The position numbers were made by a program, and so were the translations under genes. The notes beneath the pieces are model-generated. The model saw nothing but the letters and a program-made list of their open reading frames with translations, did not search any database and was not told where the DNA came from. A stretch of 64,000 nt of DNA from Desulfarculus baarsii DSM 2075 (GTDB taxonomy: Bacteria; Desulfobacterota; Desulfarculia; Desulfarculales; Desulfarculaceae), in contig NC_014365.1 of NCBI RefSeq assembly GCF_000143965.1, forward strand, positions 1,639,501 to 1,703,500. The letters are read 5' to 3'. Below are positions 52,021-63,528 of the stretch, piece by piece. Numbering within the stretch: the stretch's first letter is position 1; each line of letters begins with the position of its first letter.

Positions 52021-52385
52021 CTTTTCGCTTTTTTCCCATGCCCGCATCACGGCGCGAGTCATATCGCGTGTCGCTAATTATATCTGTCTTCTATAAAACA
52101 CATTGGTAAGTTTTAGTCGTAATAAAGGTTGTACGGCTGGCCGGTTTTGCGCGACCTTGGCGAGTGTGGTCGCGCAACGATTTGCCATCACTATCATTCA
52201 GCGTTGAATATGAATCGGCGATGGCGTGTGGGAGTTGTCCGATTATTTACTTGAACTAAGGCACAAACAAAATGCTAGCATAATAGTAAAGAGCAATTGG
52301 CGTGCGGGCCGCCCCAGTTTTTGTCCGCGCCAACCGCCAAGCGTAACTGCATCTTTGGTTGTTCGTTTCATCAAGGGAGGAACCC
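52021..52385. other. AT-rich intergenic region with a strong stem-loop
   Basis: 365 bases between the amidohydrolase and the chemoreceptor genes. A perfect 10-bp stem TTGCGCGACC / GGTCGCGCAA (52147-52156 and 52168-52177, 11-base loop) stands in the middle. Several AT-rich hexamers (TATAAA near 52092, CATAAT near 52278) could be -10 elements, but no full promoter could be assigned. I looked for sigma54 and sigma28 sites before the chemoreceptor and found none that convince. No protein gene is seen. Confidence 0.45.
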
Positions 52386-54308
52386 ATGCAAAAGCGCAGT
52401 TTGGCCTTCAAGCTGATTTTCGGCGGGCTGCTTTTGGCGCTTGCGCCAATGGCGTTGGTTGGCGTGTTGGCTGTTTGGAACGCTTCCGACGCCTTGGAAG
52501 CGTCAGCCCGCCAGCAGTCCGAAAATTTGGCCGCTTCCATCGCGGCCGCCGTGCAGGAAACCCTGGCCGAGGAAATGAAGTCGGCCGTAGCCACGGCCGC
52601 CAACCCGCTGGTGGTGGCCGCCGTCACCGCCGATGGTGAACAGCAAGCCACCAGCGCCAAGGAGGTCAGTAACTGGTTCCAAGCCGCTTTCAAGGACTAT
52701 TCGTGGCTCTACGAGGCCAATCTGCTGGCCAACGCCCAGGGCCTGTTGATCGCCGACGGCGCCGGCGGCAAGCACTTGGGCGTCAACGTCACCGAACGCG
52801 AATACTTCAAGCAGGCCATGGCCGGCAAGGCGTCCATCTCGCCGCCGCTGCGCTCGTTGCTCTCGGGCAAGCCCATCGTGGTCATCGCCGCGCCGGTGTT
52901 GGACGGCAACGGCAAGCCGCGCGGCGTGATCATCAACACCATGAAGACCGACAACCTCTCGGCCACCGCCACCAAGGCCCGCGTCGGCCAGACCGGCTAT
53001 CCCTGGATGATCGACCGCCAGGGCGTGGTGGTGGCCCACCCCGACGCCAAGCACATCCTCGAGACCAACCTGGCCAAGTCGCCGGGCATGGAGGGCATAA
53101 CCACCAAGATGCTGGCCGGGCAAGACGGCGTGGATACTTATGTTTTCCAGGGATTCGACAAGATCTGTGGTTTCGCGCCGGTGCCCTTGGTGGGCTGGTC
53201 GGTGGGCTTTACGCAAAATGTCGATGAATTCCTGGCCCCGGCGCACGCCATCCGCAACCTTGTGCTGGTCATCGCCGGGGTGGTGGCCCTGCTGGTGGGC
53301 GTGGGCGTGTTTTTCTTTGCCCGTGGCGTTTCGCGGCCGGTGATGGCCGCGGTGGTGGAGCTCAACGACGGCTCGTCCCAGGTCTCGGTGGCCTCCACCC
53401 AACTGGCCAAGGCTGGTCACTCCCTGGCCGAAGGCACCTCCGAGCAGGCCGCCTCGCTGGAGGAATCCTCGGCCAGCCTGGAAGAACTGACATCCATGAC
53501 CCGCCAGAACGCCGACAACGCCAGCCAGGCCGATAGCCTCATGCGCGAGGTGCACAACATGGCCACCCAGGCCGGCTCGACCATGGCCGAAATGCTGGGC
53601 TCGATGAATGACATCTCGTCGGCCGGCATGCAGATCAGCAAGATCATAAAGAGCATCGACGAGATCGCCTTCCAGACCAACCTGCTGGCCCTCAACGCCG
53701 CCGTGGAGGCCGCCCGGGCCGGCGAGGCCGGGGCCGGCTTCGCCGTGGTGGCCGACGAGGTGCGCTCCTTGGCCATGCGCGCCGCCGAGGCGGCCAAGAA
53801 CACCGCCGAGCTGATCACCGGCACGATCGAAAAGATCAACCATGGCACCAACCTGGCCGGCATCATGGACAAGGCCTTCGCCGGCGTCACGGCCAATGCC
53901 GGCAAGGTGGCCGAGTTGATCAGCGAGATTTCGGCCGCCTCGCGCGAGCAATCCCAGGGCATCACCCAACTCAACACCGCCGTCGGCGAAATGGACCGCG
54001 TCACCCAGACCATCGCCGCCAACGCCGAAGAGTCGGCCTCGGCCGCCGAGGAGCTCAACGCCCAGGCAGCGGCCATGCACGACATCGCCGCCGTCCTCAG
54101 CACCATCGTTTCCGGCGGCGTGGCCCAATCGGCGCAACCGGCCCGGCGCATCACGGCCCAGCCCCAGCGCGCGCTGCCCGCGCCCAAGGCCGCCGCGTCG
54201 GCCAAGCCGGCCCAGGTCAAGGCCGGCGCCGCGCCCAAGGCCCCGGCCAAGAAGCCAAACCCCAAGACCGAGATTCCCCTCGATGAAAGCGATTTCGTCG
54301 ATTTCTGA
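52386..54308 (+). CDS. Methyl-accepting chemotaxis protein with dCache-like sensor
   Basis: 640 residues, start ATG 52386 after AAGGGAGGAA. TM1 at ~10-30, periplasmic sensor ~31-289 with dCache features ([49 protein letters not shown]), TM2 ~290-312. After TM2 only a short piece resembling the first HAMP helix ([12 protein letters not shown]) precedes the signalling coiled coil, so a full HAMP domain seems absent. The conserved hairpin tip is [20 protein letters not shown] and onward. The C-terminus is Ala/Pro/Lys-rich and lacks a CheR-binding pentapeptide. No che genes are nearby. Confidence 0.92.
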
Positions 54309-54381: not shown

Positions 54382-56172
<1,791 letters not shown>

Positions 56173-56182
56173 GGGTAAGCCC

Positions 56183-56560
56183 TTACTGCTCGGAGCCCTT
56201 GGCCAGCGCCCACTGGGTCTGCACTTCGCCCTCGACGGCGTGGCGGTTGAAAATCTGGCGCATCTTGGCGTTGTCGACGAAGACGTATTTGATCGGCTCT
56301 TCGTTGAGGCGCTCGACGGTGATCATGGGCTCCTGGCTACACAGCCCGGCGCAGCCGCTGGTGGTGATGATGATGTCGGTGCGGCCGGATTTGTCCAGTT
56401 CGTCCATGGCGGCGTTGAGGACATCGCGCGCGCCGCTGGCGATGCCACATGTCCCCATATGAACGGTGATTTTTACTTGCGCGCCGTCTTCACGCAGATT
56501 GATCTGCTCGTGAACCCGGTCGCGGATCTTGGCCAGGTCGCTAATTTTGAGTTTTGCCAT
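56183..56560 (-). CDS. hndB: HndB-like thioredoxin-fold [2Fe-2S] protein
   Basis: 125 residues from ATG 56560 (GGGGAG upstream). Motifs VHMGTCGIASGAR (C38) and TTSGCAGLCSQEP (C70, C74) match the HndB family of NADP-reducing hydrogenases. Only three of the usual four cluster-ligand positions are cysteine in what I can see, so cluster binding may be altered or use another residue. It ends ten bases before hndC and shares its transcript. Confidence 0.88.
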   Translation of the reverse strand: MAKLKISDLAKIRDRVHEQINLREDGAQVKITVHMGTCGIASGARDVLNAAMDELDKSGRTDIIITTSGCAGLCSQEPMITVERLNEEPIKYVFVDNAKMRQIFNRHAVEGEVQTQWALAKGSEQ

Positions 56561-56608
56561 GGGTATAATTCTCCCCTTCACGGCGTTGGGGGTGATGACT
56601 AGTTTGGG

Positions 56609-56637
56609 AATATAACAACAGAATCTCCCACTGTCCA
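56609..56637 (-). promoter_or_regulatory. Internal promoter for hndB-hndC
   Basis: Minus strand: TGGACA (56632-56637), 17-base spacer, TATATT (56609-56614), about 45 bases before hndB. It would allow HndBC to be made independently of the upstream sensor genes. Confidence 0.55.
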
Positions 56638-56671
56638 CGACTTTTAACGCCGGTTTCAGGGTGATTCACGT

Positions 56672-57220
56672 TCAGGCCGTTGAGCCCAATTCATCAAGGG
56701 CCCCGCGCACCTGTGGCCGAAGCAAATTGACCACGGCGGGGCTTTGCAGGGCCTCGGGGCCAAGCTCCCGGCGCAGTTCGCGGGTGTCCATCTCGAAATC
56801 GTTTTCGCCCACCCTGTGCCGATAAACAAACTCCACCCCCGGCCGCGACATGATCAGCCCCAGCAGCGTGCCCGGCCAGTCGCCCAGAGGTTGGCGGTCG
56901 ATGTGGCCCAACTGAAACCAAAAGTGCAACCGTGTCCCCACGCCCGGCGCGCTGGAAAGCTCCATGCCGCCGCCCCAGGCCTCGGCGTTGGCCTTGATCA
57001 GGCTCAGCCCCAGGCCGATGCGGCGGGTCGTGCGCGTGGTGAAAAAAGGATCACTGGCCCGGGCCAGGGTCTGGGCGTCCATGCCCTTGCCGTTGTCGTT
57101 GATCGTCACCGTCATGCGATCGGCCAGCGGTTGCTCATCGATGTCGATCTCGACCAGGTTGGCCCCGGCGTTGAGCGAGTTTTCCACCAAATCCAGCAGG
57201 TGCAAGGACAGGTCTTCCAC
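56672..57220 (-). CDS. Histidine-kinase-like ATPase without a phosphoacceptor domain
   Basis: 182 residues. An isolated GHKL ATP-binding domain: N-box LLDLVENSLNAGA (no upstream HisKA), G1 INDNGKGM, FFTTRTTRRIGLGLSLIKANA, and GVGTRLHFWFQL. The last ~75 residues (LGHIDRQPLGD...) form a small extra domain. Similar ATPases lie in clostridial and deltaproteobacterial [FeFe]-hydrogenase operons. Without a phospho-His it may act as an anti-sigma-type or accessory kinase. Two bases separate it from the PHP gene. Confidence 0.82.
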   Translation of the reverse strand: MEDLSLHLLDLVENSLNAGANLVEIDIDEQPLADRMTVTINDNGKGMDAQTLARASDPFFTTRTTRRIGLGLSLIKANAEAWGGGMELSSAPGVGTRLHFWFQLGHIDRQPLGDWPGTLLGLIMSRPGVEFVYRHRVGENDFEMDTRELRRELGPEALQSPAVVNLLRPQVRGALDELGSTA

Positions 57221-57222
57221 GT

Positions 57223-57990
57223 TCAGGCGCCTCCTTCCCGGCGGCCGTGACCCAACACGCGCCGTCCCCCTTGACCGGCCAGGGCCAGGGCCAGTTCGGC
57301 CAGGCAGGGCCGGGCCAGTTCCAGCTCGGTCCAGGCCGCGCCCACGTCGCGCAGAAAATGGGCGTCGCTGGATGTGAGCACCGGCAGGCGCGCGCCCATC
57401 AGCCAGCGGTCGGCCTGAGCCGGGTCGCCCGCCCGCGAGATCTCCACGGCGTCCAGGGGCAGATCGGGCGGGATCAGGCCCAACTGGCCCACCAGGCTGT
57501 AGGACGGCCGGTCGATGTGGGCCGCCACCAGCAACCCGCCCAGTTCATGCGTGCGGCGCGCCACCTCCGAAACGGCCAGGTCGGTGGCCCCGATCAACAG
57601 GCGGGGGTTGAAGTACTCCACTTCGTCGTCGGCGTTGGCCACGATCTGCATGCCAAAGATGTCGGGGTCGTTGGGCTCTTTTTGCAGGTGATCAAAGACC
57701 ATGGCCTGCATGGTCAGGGCGGCCTTCAGGTCATCGAACAGGGTCAGCACGTGGGCCTCCTCGGCGGTGGTGACCTCCAGGCCGGCCAGCACGTGGGGCG
57801 CCGACGGGCCCAGCCGGCGGGCGGCCACCAGGGCGGCGGCGACGTTTTCGGCGCTGTTGTGGTCGCAGATGGCGATCAGCCCCAGGCCCAACTCGGCGGC
57901 GCGGCCCACCACCGCCGCCGGCGTGACGTCGAAGTCTCCGCAGGGGCTCAGGCAGGTGTGCAGATGCAGGTCGGCCCGGACGGCGCGCAC
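57223..57990 (-). CDS. PHP-domain phosphoesterase
   Basis: 255 residues from GTG 57990. ADLHLHTCLSPCGD (HxH metal site), AICDHNSAEN, LAGLEVTT, VAAHIDRPSY and a late TSSDAHFL give the metal-binding residues of the PHP family (trinuclear phosphoesterases). PHP genes recur in modular [FeFe]-hydrogenase clusters and are thought to have a regulatory or nucleotide-related role, not shown. Packed between the H-cluster protein (four-base gap) and the GHKL ATPase. Confidence 0.88.
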   Translation of the reverse strand: MRAVRADLHLHTCLSPCGDFDVTPAAVVGRAAELGLGLIAICDHNSAENVAAALVAARRLGPSAPHVLAGLEVTTAEEAHVLTLFDDLKAALTMQAMVFDHLQKEPNDPDIFGMQIVANADDEVEYFNPRLLIGATDLAVSEVARRTHELGGLLVAAHIDRPSYSLVGQLGLIPPDLPLDAVEISRAGDPAQADRWLMGARLPVLTSSDAHFLRDVGAAWTELELARPCLAELALALAGQGGRRVLGHGRREGGA

Positions 57991-57994
57991 GGCC

Positions 57995-59647
57995 CTAGGC
58001 CTGCCCGCGCAGGCCGATCTCGCTCAGGCGGCTGGCCAGGCTGTAGGCGTCCAGTTCCGAGCGCAAAAGCGGCAAGCCCTCCTCGGCGGCCTTGGCCAGG
58101 GTGTCGTCGTTTGGCCGGCGGCCGCCCACCAGGCAGACCGCGGCCAGATCCTTGAGCACCGCCACGGCGGCCACGTTCTGGTGAGTCTGCACGGTGAGCC
58201 AAAGACACTCGGCCGGGGCCTTGGCCATCACGTCGGAAAGCAGGTCGGAGACATATCCGGCCGAGACCCGGCGGCCCAGGCCACCCGCGCCGGCCAGCAC
58301 CTCCAGGCCGAGTTTGTCAACGATGTCCTTCACGGTCACGGTGTCCTCCCGGTCGGAGCCACGCGTTTCCCCCGAAGGCATGGGCTTGATGTAGGGGCAC
58401 GAGCCCTCCTGGGCCCGGCCCAGGGCCACGTCCTCGGCGAAAGTGTGGCAGTTTGGCGCGCCGCAGACGCCGCATTCCAGCATCGGCAGGCGCGATTTGA
58501 TCTCTTGAATCTGCTGGACTTTCTGCAAGGCCTCCAGGGGATCGGGGGCCAGAGGCGGCAAGGGGTGGGGCAACAGCTTGGTTTCCCAACCAAAAGCGCC
58601 CAGGCGGCACAATTCGCGAATCTTGTCCCGGTCGACATCGGAGTGAAGGCCGAAGCGCTTGATGAACGAATCCTTGACGCTGGCGGCGCGGTAGCGGTTC
58701 TCGACCGTCAACGGCCCGCCCAGGCAACCGCCGGCGCAGATGTGAGCCTCGACGAAGCTCAACTCGGGAAAGCGGCCGGCTTCGAGCATCTCGAGCATGT
58801 TGACGACTTCGCTGAAGCCGCTGACCGACAGCGAATAGTCGCAATCGACCGAGTTGACCTGGCCGCCCGCCCCGGCCCAGGCGATGCCCACGCCCGAGGC
58901 GCGCTGGATGCGCTGGGAGTCGTCCTTCAGCCGCGGCAAGGCGTGGAGGATGTGGCCGTAGATCTCGGAGGCGCAGATGATGCCGTCCACGTAGGGCCGT
59001 TTGACTGAAAGCGGATCCTCCACCGTGGGCCGGATAGCCACGCACGGCGAAATAATGAACACGCCGACGCTTTTGATGTCCCAGCCCCGCTCGATGGACG
59101 TGCGCGTCTTGATCCACTTGGCGGCAAGGGTCTGGGGCGAAAGCAGGGGCATGACGTTTGGCACCAGGCTGGGAAAGCGCATGGCGATAAGGCGCACCAC
59201 CGCCGGGCAGGTGGGGCTGATGCCCGGCCGCGTTTCGGGGTGGGTTTGCAGATATTCCGTCATGGCCGTGGCCACCATTTCGGCGGTCCAGCAGGTGTCG
59301 ACCACTTCCTCGAAGCCCAACGCGCGCAGGGCAAGCATGACCTGGTTTGGCGTGACCTTGTAGCCGAATTGGGCGAACAACGCCGGGCTGGGCACGGCCA
59401 CCGGGTGGGCGAAGTCCTTGATGCGCTTGAGGCTGCTGCTGATGGGCTCGATAGCGTCGGCCGGGCAGACGCGGTAGCAGGCCCCGCAGGCCACGCAATG
59501 GTCGAAACGGATGACCGCCTTGCCGTCATGCACGCGGATGGCCTGATTGGGGCAGGCCTTCATGCACAGCACGCAACCGGTGCATTTTTCGGGCAGGATG
59601 CGCAGGGCGTGGATGGGCCTGTTATGTGCGCTGACTGCTTGGTTCAA
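57995..59647 (-). CDS. H-cluster protein, putative sensory [FeFe]-hydrogenase (HydS-like)
   Basis: 550 residues. 2[4Fe-4S] ferredoxin domain (C22, C25, C28, C32; C51, C54, C57, C61), [FeFe]-hydrogenase large-subunit-like domain (~80-360), a further [4Fe-4S] domain (C392, C395, C400, C417) and a C-terminal DRTGG domain (~437-548). The H-cluster ligands are all kept: C147, C202, C304 and C308. The proton-relay Cys of the TSCCP motif is Thr146 (sequence SPTCP), and the Lys and Glu of the MPCxxKxxE motif are lost (SPCVAIRPT). This pattern is known from sensory or low-activity hydrogenases, so a hydrogen or redox sensor is likelier than a working catalyst. Confidence 0.85.
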   Translation of the reverse strand: MNQAVSAHNRPIHALRILPEKCTGCVLCMKACPNQAIRVHDGKAVIRFDHCVACGACYRVCPADAIEPISSSLKRIKDFAHPVAVPSPALFAQFGYKVTPNQVMLALRALGFEEVVDTCWTAEMVATAMTEYLQTHPETRPGISPTCPAVVRLIAMRFPSLVPNVMPLLSPQTLAAKWIKTRTSIERGWDIKSVGVFIISPCVAIRPTVEDPLSVKRPYVDGIICASEIYGHILHALPRLKDDSQRIQRASGVGIAWAGAGGQVNSVDCDYSLSVSGFSEVVNMLEMLEAGRFPELSFVEAHICAGGCLGGPLTVENRYRAASVKDSFIKRFGLHSDVDRDKIRELCRLGAFGWETKLLPHPLPPLAPDPLEALQKVQQIQEIKSRLPMLECGVCGAPNCHTFAEDVALGRAQEGSCPYIKPMPSGETRGSDREDTVTVKDIVDKLGLEVLAGAGGLGRRVSAGYVSDLLSDVMAKAPAECLWLTVQTHQNVAAVAVLKDLAAVCLVGGRRPNDDTLAKAAEEGLPLLRSELDAYSLASRLSEIGLRGQA

Positions 59648-59696: not shown

Positions 59697-60152
59697 TCAG
59701 TTACATATGTCGATCTCGACGTTGACGCTGGTGCCGCCGCCAATGGCGGTGTGGATGTCCAAGCGGTCGCTGTTGCGTTTGATGTTGGGCAGGCCCATGC
59801 CCGCGCCGAAGCCCATCTCGCGCATCTCGTGGGTGGCGGTGGACCAGCCCTCGGTCATGGCCAACTCCAGGTTGGGGATGCCAGGACCGTGGTCTTGCGT
59901 CTCCACGCGGATCTTGGTCGGCGAGACGTAGAGGCGCACCTCGCCGCCAGCCTCGCCGCCGTACATCACCACGTTCATCTCGGCCTCGAAGGCGGCGATG
60001 GCCGCCCGTCGCAGCACCTGGGACGGCAGGCCGATGCCCTTGAGCAGCTTCTTGACCATGATCGAGACGGACCCGGCCGAAGCGAAATCGCCGCCCTTGA
60101 TGGGGAAAGTCTGGACCAGCTTCAAGTTTTCGTTCGTCGCCGCCTGGGCCAT
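59697..60152 (-). CDS. Anti-sigma-factor-like serine kinase ATPase (RsbW/RsbT type)
   Basis: 151 residues from ATG 60152. GHKL fold: AAIAAFEAEMNVVMYGG (N-box), ETQDHGPGIPN (G1), GFGAGMGLPNIKRNSD (G2), and IGGGTSVNVEI. The size and motif spacing match small RsbW/RsbT-like kinases, which phosphorylate an STAS protein or bind a sigma factor, rather than two-component kinases. No STAS or sigma gene is adjacent. It lies between the DRTGG gene and the H-cluster gene. Confidence 0.85.
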   Translation of the reverse strand: MAQAATNENLKLVQTFPIKGGDFASAGSVSIMVKKLLKGIGLPSQVLRRAAIAAFEAEMNVVMYGGEAGGEVRLYVSPTKIRVETQDHGPGIPNLELAMTEGWSTATHEMREMGFGAGMGLPNIKRNSDRLDIHTAIGGGTSVNVEIDICN

Positions 60153-60159
60153 CCGCGCG

Positions 60160-60504
60160 CTACCTGCATCCTTTGACGCCACTTTGGAAAAGTCGGCCGC
60201 TGGCCTCGAACATCGAATAATTACACGCCAAAAGCGGCAGATTAAACTGCTCGGCCAACTCGATGACCTGCTGGCCCGGCACCTTGCCGCGGACAAAAAG
60301 CACCGCGCAGATGCCCGATATCTCGCAGGTGCGCACCACCTGGATGTTGGTCAGCCCCGTGAGCAACAGCGTGCCTTCGGGCGAAAAGGCCAGCACATCG
60401 CTCATCAGGTCGGAGCTGAAAGCTCGGCCAATGTCGATGTCCAGCCAACGCCGGCCGCTGAGAACCACGGCGTCCAGCAGGGGGACTATATCGCGCAGCA
60501 GAAT
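60160..60504 (-). CDS. Stand-alone DRTGG-domain protein, unusual start codon
   Basis: 114 residues if started at ATT 60504. It is a paralogue of the DRTGG domain at the C-terminus of the H-cluster protein (compare SDLMSDVLAFSPEG with SDLLSDVMAKAPAE). The conserved N-terminal part (LLRDIVPLLDAVVLSG) lies upstream of the first usable GTG (60468), so the gene must begin earlier. Between the hndA stop and that region only ATT (60504) or CTG (60501) can serve; GGAG lies seven bases before the ATT. DRTGG domains also occur in phosphotransacetylase regulators and may bind nucleotides. Confidence 0.75.
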   Translation of the reverse strand: MLLRDIVPLLDAVVLSGRRWLDIDIGRAFSSDLMSDVLAFSPEGTLLLTGLTNIQVVRTCEISGICAVLFVRGKVPGQQVIELAEQFNLPLLACNYSMFEASGRLFQSGVKGCR

Positions 60505-60519
60505 GTTCCCGCTCCGACG

Positions 60520-61026
60520 CTATTGATAGCGCTCGACCAGGTTGATCACGCTGTCGGCCATGATCTTGCGGTGGGTGTCTTCGTTGATCACCACCACCGG
60601 GGCCACGCCGCAGGCGCCCAGACAGCGCACGCCCTCGACCGTGAAACGACGGTCCTCGGTGGTGCCGTCGGCGTTGAGGGTCAGGTGCTGTGTCAGGCGA
60701 TCCATGGTTTCCTTGCCGCCGCGCACGTAACAGGCCGTGCCCAGGCAGACGCGCACCACGTTGCGGCCGCGCGGCTTCATGGTGAAGAAAGAGTAGAACG
60801 TGGCCACGCCAAAGACCTCGTGGCCGGCCATGCCCAAACCGTCGGCGATGCGCTGTTGGACGGCCTCCGGCAGGTAACCCACCACGCCCTGACAGGCCTG
60901 CAGCACCGGGATCAGCGCGCCTGGCTTGCCGCGATAATCGGCGCAGATCTGGTCGATCTTGGTCAGCATTTCGGGCGTGACGTCGGCGGGCATTTCGGTG
61001 TAGGCGGATTTTTCGGCCAGACTCAT
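60520..61026 (-). CDS. hndA: HndA / NuoE-like [2Fe-2S] subunit
   Basis: 168 residues with the thioredoxin-like NuoE fold. Cluster ligands C94, C99 (VCLGTACYVRGG) and C135, C139 (CLGACGVAP). The N-terminal helical bundle shows LIPVLQACQGVVGYLPE and FGVATFYSFF, as in NuoE, HydC and HndA. It passes electrons between the flavin subunit and partners. First gene of the minus-strand operon; AAGGGAG precedes ATG 61026. Confidence 0.95.
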   Translation of the reverse strand: MSLAEKSAYTEMPADVTPEMLTKIDQICADYRGKPGALIPVLQACQGVVGYLPEAVQQRIADGLGMAGHEVFGVATFYSFFTMKPRGRNVVRVCLGTACYVRGGKETMDRLTQHLTLNADGTTEDRRFTVEGVRCLGACGVAPVVVINEDTHRKIMADSVINLVERYQ

Positions 61027-61168: not shown

Positions 61169-61906
61169 TCAGAAAACGCCCACGGCCAGCAGCGCCGACA
61201 GCTCGCATAGCTCCACCGAGGCGCCAAGCGTGTCGCCGGTATAGCCGCCCAAACGCCGCCGATACCACAGGCCCAGGCCCCAGCCGGCCGCCAGCACGGC
61301 CAGCGCCGCCAGCGCGCCGGCCGGCCCGGCCGCGATCAGGGCGATGGCCAGGGCCGAGGCCCCGCAGGCGAACTCGCGGCCCAGGCCGGGGCCGCCGGCC
61401 ACCGCCGCGCCCAGGCCCTTGTCGCCCCGGGCCGGCGGCAGCATTCCGCTGATGAACACCGGCGCGACTCTGGCCAGGGCCGGTGCGGCCACCAGCGCCC
61501 CGGGCAACGCGGCCCCTTCCAGCGAGGCCAGCGCGGCGAATTTCAGCAAGAGCACGCCCGAAACCGCCGCCACGGCGAACGAGCCGGCGTGGGTGTCCTT
61601 CATGATCTCCAGGGCGCGTCCACGATCGGCGGTGGTGCCCAGGGCGTCGGCGGTGTCGGCCACGCCGTCAAGGTGCAACAACCGCGTCAGCAGGCCCCAC
61701 AAGGCCACCAGCAGCCCGGCCACGGCCAGCGCCGGCAGGCCCATGGCCCGCAGCAGCAGAGCCGCGCCGGCCAGGGCCAGGCCCAGCAAGCCGCCGACCA
61801 CGCCGTACCAGGCTCGGCTGCGCGCGAAATCATCGGCGTCGGCGGCCAGGTCGCGGCTGGGCATGGCCACGGTCAAAAATTGCAGGGCCAGCAAAAAGGC
61901 CTTCAT
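61169..61906 (-). CDS. cobS: Adenosylcobinamide-GDP ribazoletransferase
   Basis: 245 residues from ATG 61906, an integral membrane protein with about six hydrophobic segments. Characteristic motifs: LLALQFLTVAMP near the N-terminus, RLLHLDGVADTADAL and MKDTHAGSFAV (the family's LDGxADxxDxL and DxxxGxxG blocks), GGYTGDTLGASVELCEL at the C-terminus. It joins alpha-ribazole to AdoCbi-GDP in cobalamin assembly. Last of cobU-cobT-cobS. Confidence 0.94.
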   Translation of the reverse strand: MKAFLLALQFLTVAMPSRDLAADADDFARSRAWYGVVGGLLGLALAGAALLLRAMGLPALAVAGLLVALWGLLTRLLHLDGVADTADALGTTADRGRALEIMKDTHAGSFAVAAVSGVLLLKFAALASLEGAALPGALVAAPALARVAPVFISGMLPPARGDKGLGAAVAGGPGLGREFACGASALAIALIAAGPAGALAALAVLAAGWGLGLWYRRRLGGYTGDTLGASVELCELSALLAVGVF

Positions 61907-61916
61907 CGACCCGTTC

Positions 61917-62972
61917 CTAATGGCCGGTGACGCCGGCCTCGGCAAAGGTGGCCATTTCGGAATAGATGGCCACGGCCGCGCGCAGCACGTTCATGGCCAC
62001 GGCCGCGCCGGTGCCTTCGCCCAAGCGCATCTCCAGCGTCAGGATCGGCCGCAGGCCCAGCTTTTCCAGTTGGGCGCGGTGGCCGATCTCCACCGAGCCG
62101 TGGCCCGAGAAGCAATAATCAATGGCCGTGGGGCACAGGCCGCCGGCCACCAGGGCCGCGGTGGTGCTGATGAAGCCGTCGAGCATCACCGGCACGCCCC
62201 GGGCCGCCGCCTCCAAAATGTAGCCGCACATGGCCGCAATCTCCAGGCCGCCCACCTTGCACAGCACTTCCAAGGGGTTGGCCGGGTCGGGCTTGTTGAC
62301 GTCCAGGGCGGTTTTCAGCGCGGCCAGCTTGCGCGAAAGCCCCGCGTCGTCGACGCCCGTGCCCCGGCCCATGACCTGCTCGGGCCGCAGGCCGCAGATC
62401 ACGGCGGTGATGGCCGAGCACGGCGTGGTGTTGCCGATGCCCATCTCGCCGGGGATCAGCAGGTCGTAGCCTTTTTCGATCAGGCGCTGGGCGGTCTGGG
62501 CCCCGACGACGATGGCGTCCAGGGCCTGGTTCATGGTCATGACCGGGCCCTTGGTCATGTCGGCGGTGCCGTGGGCCACCTTGGCCTGGATCAGCCCCTG
62601 GGCCTGGCTCATGTCGCCGGCCACGCCCACGTCGATGACCCAGACGTCGGCCCCGGCCTGGCGGCAGAGCACGTTGATGCCCGCGCCGCCGGCCAGGAAG
62701 TTGTAAATCATCTGCTGGGTCACTTCCTGGGGATAGGCGCTGACCCCGCCGGCGGCCACGCCGTGATCGGCGGCGAATACCGCCGCGGCCGGCTTGGGCT
62801 GGGCCAGCTTGGCCGCGCCGCCGCGAATGATGCAGAGCTGTTTGGCGATATCTTCCAGACGGCCCAACGAGCCCTGGGGTTTGGTCAGGCTATCCAGGCG
62901 GCGTTGGGCCTCCTGGCCGATGGCGTAGTCGGGCAATTTGACGCGGTTGATGATGTTTTCGAGTCTATCCAC
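61917..62972 (-). CDS. cobT: Nicotinate-nucleotide-dimethylbenzimidazole phosphoribosyltransferase
   Basis: 351 residues, normal length. SLTKPQGSLGRLEDIA, VFAADHGVAAGGVSAYPQEVT, GEMGIGNTTPCSAI and a C-terminal LRLGEGTGAAVAM with catalytic Glu match the family. It makes alpha-ribazole phosphate for the lower ligand of B12. The GTG start at 62972 lies inside the end of cobU (8-base overlap), so translation is coupled. Confidence 0.96.
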   Translation of the reverse strand: MDRLENIINRVKLPDYAIGQEAQRRLDSLTKPQGSLGRLEDIAKQLCIIRGGAAKLAQPKPAAAVFAADHGVAAGGVSAYPQEVTQQMIYNFLAGGAGINVLCRQAGADVWVIDVGVAGDMSQAQGLIQAKVAHGTADMTKGPVMTMNQALDAIVVGAQTAQRLIEKGYDLLIPGEMGIGNTTPCSAITAVICGLRPEQVMGRGTGVDDAGLSRKLAALKTALDVNKPDPANPLEVLCKVGGLEIAAMCGYILEAAARGVPVMLDGFISTTAALVAGGLCPTAIDYCFSGHGSVEIGHRAQLEKLGLRPILTLEMRLGEGTGAAVAMNVLRAAVAIYSEMATFAEAGVTGH

Positions 62973-63528
62973 GGGAAAGATCCTCCGGGGTCGAGCCGGC
63001 GGGCCGGCCTTTCAGGGCCAGGGCCAGGCCGGCGGCGACGAACAAGACGCGGGGGCAACTGGCGGCCATGGTTTGATGCAGCGCGCCGGCCAGATCCCTG
63101 AACCGGCGGGCAAGGGCGTTTTCGGGCACGATGCCCAGGCCCACTTCGTTGGAGACGAACAAGACCTGGCCGCCAAGCTCGCCCAGCAGGCCGGCCAGGG
63201 CGTCGAAGCGCTCGATGAGCTGGGCGTCGCCGGCCGGGGTTTGCAGCATGAGGTTGGTCAGCCACAGGCTCAGGCAATCGACCAGAACCAGCCGGTGGTT
63301 TCGCGCGGCGGCGCGCAGGGCGTCCTCCAGGGCCAGGGGCTCCTCGATGGTGGTCCAGGCCGGGCCGCGACGTTGGATGTGCTTGGCCACGCGCTGGCGC
63401 ATCTCGTCGTCCCAGGCCTGGGCCGTGGCGATGTAGGCCGGTCGGGGGCACAGGGCCAGGGCCAGGCGTTCGGCGTAGGCGCTTTTGCCGCTGGATGCTC
63501 CGCCCAATATCAGGGTATGCTCGGTCAT
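62965..63528 (-). CDS. cobU: Adenosylcobinamide kinase / adenosylcobinamide-phosphate guanylyltransferase
   Basis: 187 residues. P-loop GGASSGKSAYAE (9-20), ATAQAWDDEMRQRVAKH (with the guanylylated His region), LVDCLSLWLTNLM and FVSNEVGLGIVPENALARRFRD are classic CobU motifs. It phosphorylates adenosylcobinamide and adds GMP. First gene of the cob group. No room for a cobalamin riboswitch exists before the divergent gene, and none was seen. Confidence 0.96.
   Translation of the reverse strand: MTEHTLILGGASSGKSAYAERLALALCPRPAYIATAQAWDDEMRQRVAKHIQRRGPAWTTIEEPLALEDALRAAARNHRLVLVDCLSLWLTNLMLQTPAGDAQLIERFDALAGLLGELGGQVLFVSNEVGLGIVPENALARRFRDLAGALHQTMAASCPRVLFVAAGLALALKGRPAGSTPEDLSRG

Follow-up and report, generated by a model that had tools for sequence, protein, structure and literature searches.

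The window, i.e., the entire 64,000-nucleotide stretch of the Desulfarculus baarsii DSM 2075 genome analyzed here, carries on its minus strand an operon with the gene order NuoE, DRTGG, GHKL ATPase, HydS-like protein, PHP, GHKL ATPase, Trx-ferredoxin, NuoF. The coordinates of the genes and of the domains of the HydS-like protein are listed in Table 1, together with the basis of each assignment. Neither a DNA-binding protein nor a response regulator was detected among the operon genes, and PADLOC gave no defense-system match for its small genes. Upstream of the operon lie cobalamin-like ORFs (CobS, CobT, and CobU types by eye; window positions 61169-63528, minus strand).

Table 1. Genes of the operon and domains of the HydS-like protein (window positions)
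Feature	Position	Strand	Basis
NuoE/HydC/BfuC-like [2Fe-2S] subunit	60520..61026	-	Pfam; PDB matches of the L065 orthologue are C subunits of bifurcating hydrogenases
Stand-alone DRTGG/PucR-type domain protein	60160..60468	-	sub-threshold match (20.3 bits); 68/79 related loci have an upstream orthologue
Single-domain GHKL ATPase, RsbW/SpoIIAB-like	59697..60152	-	Pfam, gene order; ATG at 60152, the ORF itself extending up to 60296
Group D HydS-like protein carrying a fused DRTGG domain (550 aa; start codon TTG)	57995..59647	-	ORF, Pfam, alignment, tree, predicted structure
N-terminal 2x[4Fe-4S] ferredoxin domain, residues 16-68, 8/8 Cys present	59444..59602	-	Pfam 2x Fer4 (residues 16-67), Cys alignment
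H-domain Fe_hyd_lg_C, residues 82-312, 104 bits, E 1e-29	58712..59404	-	Pfam and alignment
C-terminal [4Fe-4S] motif C-x2-C-x4-C-x16-C (C392, C395, C400, C417), Pfam FeS PF04060 residues 387-419	58391..58489	-	Pfam, alignment
DRTGG domain, residues 442-543, weak match: 23.0 bits vs cut-off 25.2	58019..58324	-	Pfam and gene-order comparison
PHP-domain protein, putative phosphoesterase	57223..57990	-	Pfam, gene order
Second GHKL protein (HATPase_c) without a detected HisKA domain	56672..57220	-	Pfam, gene order
Thioredoxin-like [2Fe-2S] ferredoxin-type protein	56183..56638	-	20.1 bits, below cut-off
NuoF/HydB/BfuB-like NADH-FMN subunit, N-terminal Trx, C-terminal 2x[4Fe-4S], bifurcating type	54382..56172	-	Pfam; 7t2r_B 893 bits, 7q4v_B 858 bits

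The TTG codon at 59647 comes immediately after a stop codon, and no other start would retain the first cysteine motif of the HydS-like protein. Group D (M2e) proteins such as TamHydS combine two N-terminal [4Fe-4S] motifs, an H-domain, and a C-terminal Cx2Cx4Cx16C motif, and lack both a PAS domain and the group A proton relay (Land et al. 2020; PMC8163306); the C-terminal motif is a hallmark of groups C and D (PMC8163306). The same layout is found here, with four [4Fe-4S] clusters predicted in total, and Pfam returned no PAS match in the protein, its C terminus being formed by the FeS domain followed by DRTGG. Relatives have homologous stand-alone DRTGG-type genes at the equivalent place, which backs the DRTGG assignment. 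The original prediction had the [4Fe-4S] and DRTGG domains fused on in place of a PAS domain; both domains are present, but DRTGG represents a fused neighboring gene, and no PAS domain was replaced. The AlphaFold model (89-sequence alignment) displays a hydrogenase fold with a pLDDT of 94, and the best 50 PDB matches listed for it are all [FeFe]-hydrogenases.

Alignment with solved [FeFe]-hydrogenases bore out the ligand assignment of the original prediction: Cys147, Cys202, Cys304, and Cys308 align with the four H-cluster cysteines, i.e., the ligands of the cubane are present, and T146 indeed occupies the position of the proton-transfer cysteine, C299 of CpI. The replacements of the conserved Lys and Glu by Ile and Thr are likewise real (I205 at K358, T208 at E361), but many family members have lost the Glu. 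Specifically, the alignment of relatives identifies Thr/Ala/Ser at C299, Ser/Thr at M353 (S200 here), and the loss of E361 as family traits, and only K358 to Ile is peculiar to the D. baarsii protein, with Lys in nearly all relatives. Group D uses a replacement relay, E252-E289-S249-D265, and in TamHydS the E252V exchange and even the conservative E252D exchange abolish H2 oxidation, Gln not being among the variants there (Cabotaje et al. 2023; PMC10407848). With the register for the TamHydS relay positions fixed from the primer sequences in that paper, the corresponding residues here are Q263, E300, A260, and S276, so that E289 alone is kept. Overall, T146, I205, T208, and Q263/S276 stand in for relay and diiron-contacting residues of the H-domain, and both known proton pathways are lost.

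The outer genes of the operon encode a module of bifurcating type. The closest solved structures to the NuoF-like subunit are 7t2r_B and 7q4v_B; bifurcating-type NuoF corresponds to BfuB of the Bfu family (PMC9304861), and the products of 54382-56172 and 60520-61026 have the features of BfuB (Trx [2Fe-2S], FMN, 2x[4Fe-4S]) and BfuC, respectively, a comparison that does not concern the HydS-like protein. HydA is absent from the operon after NuoF, so the group A bifurcating hydrogenase that shares the operon in group D is missing, and no BfuA subunit is adjacent as it is in Types 1-3. Instead, a dCache chemoreceptor gene (window 52359-54308, plus strand) converges on the NuoF end, where HydA would be expected. 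Three FDH/NuoG-type proteins encoded elsewhere in the genome are candidate partners.

The core of the operon is conserved in 79 related loci, with the first ATPase gene upstream in 76, the PHP gene downstream in 73, the second ATPase gene in 69, and the upstream DRTGG gene in 68. A downstream DRTGG gene is separate in 70 of these loci and fused to the H-domain gene in nine, namely seven Desulfarculaceae-type loci plus L114 and L115. The latter two, HydF-negative and basal in the tree, represent a second, separate DRTGG-H-domain fusion, again with Ser at position 276. In one genome (G038; L075 2999-8278), the same operon has the H-domain gene cleanly missing and a 120-aa DRTGG gene in its place, and the genome contains no PF02906 gene; the H-domain is thus dispensable to the module. 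The partners of NuoF vary among the clade genomes as well. In L113 (13537-16617) and similar proteins of 1020-1050 aa, bifurcating-type NuoF carries a fused NADPH-binding module (Fer4_20 and Pyr_redox_2), a likely transhydrogenase, and in three other clade loci (L141, L135, L098) NuoF is followed by Fer2_4/Fer4 or formate dehydrogenase-like subunits. The regulatory set therefore accompanies the NADH/ferredoxin core whatever the third substrate.

A functional [FeFe]-hydrogenase requires the maturases HydE, HydF, and HydG, which build its diiron subcluster, and none of them was found in the D. baarsii genome, a single closed contig of 3,655,731 bases that is 99.98% complete. The best HydF match reached 79.9 bits, in the GTPase part only (cut-off, 325.6), HydE reached 24.9 bits (cut-off, 254.6), and HydG gave no match, with Thermotoga maritima as the positive control detected in each maturase search. 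Nor does the closed genome encode another [FeFe]-hydrogenase: the gene at 57995-59647 is its only PF02906 (Fe_hyd_lg_C) gene, alongside two NiFe-hydrogenases. Across the class, 63 genomes were surveyed for HydF, HydG, and PF02906, HydE having been searched in the D. baarsii genome only. The 12 genomes that carry a close homologue (G000, G040, G041, G045, G051, G053-G058, G061) all lacked HydF and HydG and had one PF02906 gene each. Most class genomes with catalytic hydrogenases possess maturases; one member of the same family, G059, has a catalytic hydrogenase, HydF, and HydG, which indicates that the search works within the family. Note that draft genomes give some false negatives (e.g., G032), and weight was therefore placed on the closed genome and on consistency. 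Apparent in-frame stops in class relatives proved to be terminal stops.

Relatives were collected by an alignment-based search, which found 393 sequences, of which 80 were kept; a single-sequence search of the same contigs found none. Among 50 genomes from several phyla, drawn from those of the 80 relatives, HydF accompanied catalytic HydA in 19/21, whereas it occurred in none of the 29 genomes without HydA (Fisher test, 7e-12). HydG was found in 20/21 of the former, and a single HydG-type match (G081) in the latter. The HydF-negative set includes complete chromosomes, four from WOR-3 and one from Gemmatimonadota. The tree (115 rows, a quick build with SH-aLRT support only) places the family of 82 rows on one side of a branch with support 100, apart from groups A, B, and C, as expected for a monophyletic group D; HydA-linked Bacillota members served as stand-ins for TamHydS, which is itself not in the tree. 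The D. baarsii gene thus belongs to a group D-type family, and within it to a clade of 54 rows (SH-aLRT 99) that spans many phyla. Almost every maturase-free member belongs to this clade; members linked to HydA, which are mostly Bacillota and Bacteroidota, do not. HydA lies next to the gene in none of 42 clade loci, and it shares the locus in most basal members that have NuoF. Two clade members (L102 and L109) come from HydF/HydG-positive genomes with no HydA in the locus. Maturases are present in the outgroups A, B, and C and in the basal rows, which makes a loss within the clade the more parsimonious direction; on the tree it is essentially one event (three label changes).

The residue patterns have to be read against this single loss, because correlations with it are not independent; when residues were tested against HydF status by independent contrasts, there were only three independent pairs and no power, so that the differences below are clade differences rather than repeated co-loss. 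At the D265 position (276), 20/28 basal rows have an acidic residue, as against 0/49 in the clade. The Lys that binds the diiron site (CpI K358) persists in 46/49 clade rows, and a Glu equivalent to E252 in 36/49, so these residues alone do not demonstrate loss of the diiron site clade-wide. Since most clade members keep them, they were rejected as universal markers of that loss, and simple decay does not explain their persistence. C147, C202, and C304 are invariant across 77 rows, so that a [4Fe-4S] site is kept, and the cysteines of the N-terminal, H-, and C-terminal domains are almost fully conserved in the 49 clade rows from many phyla. The bridging Cys308 (CpI C503) is Ser in two relatives, L068 5226-6914 (G051) and L069 1421-3070 (G045), with the other three ligands kept.

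By architecture and phylogeny the protein is a group D derivative, one that departs from the group in its relay and its missing HydA partner, and whose genome does not supply the HydEFG that [FeFe]-hydrogenases generally require. The lack of the three maturases and of another [FeFe]-hydrogenase makes it more likely an iron-sulfur redox sensor for the NADH/ferredoxin electron-splitting enzyme. We therefore favor, with a probability of roughly 0.55, a group D derivative that holds only a four-cysteine [4Fe-4S] cluster in its H-domain and serves the NADH/ferredoxin module as a redox sensor or regulator, DRTGG being the output. That the diiron site is absent in D. baarsii is very probable. Retention of the four cysteines fits a plain [4Fe-4S] cluster, as is present on the four cysteines of apo-HydA. 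Cluster content, sensing, signal, and output are what we infer from these data, as follows. The hydrogenase-like H-domain would hold a plain [4Fe-4S] cluster in addition to the two N-terminal clusters and the C-terminal one, and the protein may monitor the NuoE-TrxFd-NuoF module, i.e., BfuBC, of its own operon. Electrons entering its clusters would cause a change of shape, which the fused DRTGG domain might relay to the GHKL ATPases and the PHP protein, and these in turn would adjust expression or activity of the BfuBC complex. The C-terminal cluster of TamHydS is not reduced by H2 (PMC13104023), a point against this reading that leaves signaling through that cluster putative; the lack of a DNA-binding protein or response regulator gene in the operon also counts against it.

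That the protein is an electron-transfer subunit, taking the place of HydA/BfuA in a 'Type 4'-like Bfu complex and linking the NADH module to a redox partner, seems unlikely. The shared operon with BfuBC, the four predicted clusters, and the lack of an adjacent BfuA gene would suit such a role, and Type 4 Bfu enzymes without BfuA have been described (PMC9304861). However, relatives with HydA or an NADPH/formate-type BfuA beside NuoF still carry the HydS-like gene, so it is no BfuA substitute; G038 has the complex without an H-domain gene; and the N-terminal Fer2_4/NADH-G domains of BfuA are missing from the HydS-like protein. An Fe-S assembly factor for the bifurcating complex, comparable to Nar1/NARFL, is improbable too. 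Nar1/NARFL/IOP1 is a eukaryotic Fe-S assembly factor with a hydrogenase-like fold, no diiron site, and no HydEFG, and the D. baarsii protein resembles it in its fold, its cysteine sites, and the missing maturases, with an operon partner very rich in Fe-S clusters. In contrast to the D. baarsii locus, Nar1/NARFL is not known to have a DRTGG domain, ATPase, or NADH operon; the accompanying ATPase, PHP, and DRTGG genes are typical of regulation, and G038 retains the Fe-S-rich complex without the gene.

A sensor of H2 with a complete H-cluster including the diiron site, signaling via DRTGG, represents the original view, which spoke of a hydrogen or redox sensor. The lost proton relay and the missing PAS domain do not by themselves imply it: group D HydS proteins regularly show both traits (PMC8163306, PMC10407848), and artificially matured TamHydS is active even though it has no group A relay (PMC8163306). 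A sensory or regulatory role with DRTGG as the likely output fits the gene context; sensing of H2 by an H-cluster is not supported in D. baarsii and has little probability, even though the four ligands are kept, the hydrogenase fold is predicted at high confidence, and two NiFe-hydrogenases suggest that H2 matters to the cell. Against it stand the absence of HydE, HydF, and HydG from a practically complete genome, Ile at K358 and Gln at the E252 equivalent, and the 12/12 class carriers without HydF/HydG, two of them also without the bridging cysteine. It is highly improbable that the clade H-domain has retained a second metal subcluster made independently of HydEFG, with a novel cofactor or assembly pathway; this would account for the retention of the diiron-contacting Lys and the E252-type Glu by most HydEFG-less clade members, though not in the D. 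baarsii protein. Least probable is a functionless, decaying remnant of a hydrogenase locus, to which the lost HydA and maturases, K358I, and the bridging cysteine lost in two relatives would point, but which does not agree with the conserved cysteines of all three domains and the preserved operon order.

While the lost group A relay and the missing PAS domain are ordinary group D traits and thus already known, a closed genome without HydE, HydF, and HydG whose sole Fe_hyd_lg_C protein belongs to a group D sub-clade spanning many phyla is new, as are the lack of HydF and HydG in the 12 class carriers, the confinement of HydF to HydA genomes in the set of 50, and the absence of HydA from the clade loci; no report of HydEFG-less group D proteins was found in the open-access literature. 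Group D proteins have been described as putative H2 sensors, and here a large, deep branch with the same operon occurs in genomes of which nearly all those tested lack both the ability to make an H-cluster and a catalytic [FeFe]-hydrogenase that could be regulated. A scaffold that senses the redox state of NADH/ferredoxin bifurcation would change how group D as a whole is understood; otherwise, a novel cofactor would be implied. Both alternatives are directly testable in cultivable organisms. PF02906 counts taken as hydrogenases overstate H2 metabolism in metagenomes.

Among known systems, the protein most resembles TamHydS of Thermoanaerobacter mathranii, with which it shares the two Fer4 motifs, the H-domain, the C-terminal motif, and the absence of PAS domain and group A relay. 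TamHydS has Ser/Thr for M353, a histidine kinase-like ATPase next door, and a position upstream of a bifurcating hydrogenase (PMC8163306), which correspond here to the Ser, the neighboring GHKL ATPase, and the bifurcating NADH module. Unlike TamHydS, however, the D. baarsii protein has an operon without HydA and a genome without HydEFG, has lost E252 (to Gln), S249, and D265 of the relay as well as K358 (to Ile), and carries the fused DRTGG domain. With the group C (M2f) protein TmHydS of Thermotoga maritima it has in common the N- and C-terminal [4Fe-4S] domains and an H-domain without C299, but TmHydS contains a PAS domain and its genome encodes HydF and HydG. Separately, group C-type H-domain proteins were noted in two HydF/HydG-less genomes (L209 789-2849 and L210 1345-3402), their last cysteine motif being one residue shorter (C-x2-C) and the one in L209 being fused to HisKA and HATPase; in L205 (10081-12360), a group C-type H-domain is fused to a sigma-54 activator and an HTH domain, plausibly a one-protein transcription regulator. 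The NuoE/NuoF-like BfuBC core is like that of the Bfu family (HydABC type; 'Type 4' without BfuA), while differing from Types 1-3 in the missing adjacent BfuA, for which the three FDH/NuoG-type candidates lie elsewhere. Hydrogenase-like genes without HydEFG are known from Rhodospirillum rubrum and Entamoeba (PMC4967309); in contrast to these isolated organisms, an entire group D sub-clade spread over many phyla is concerned here.
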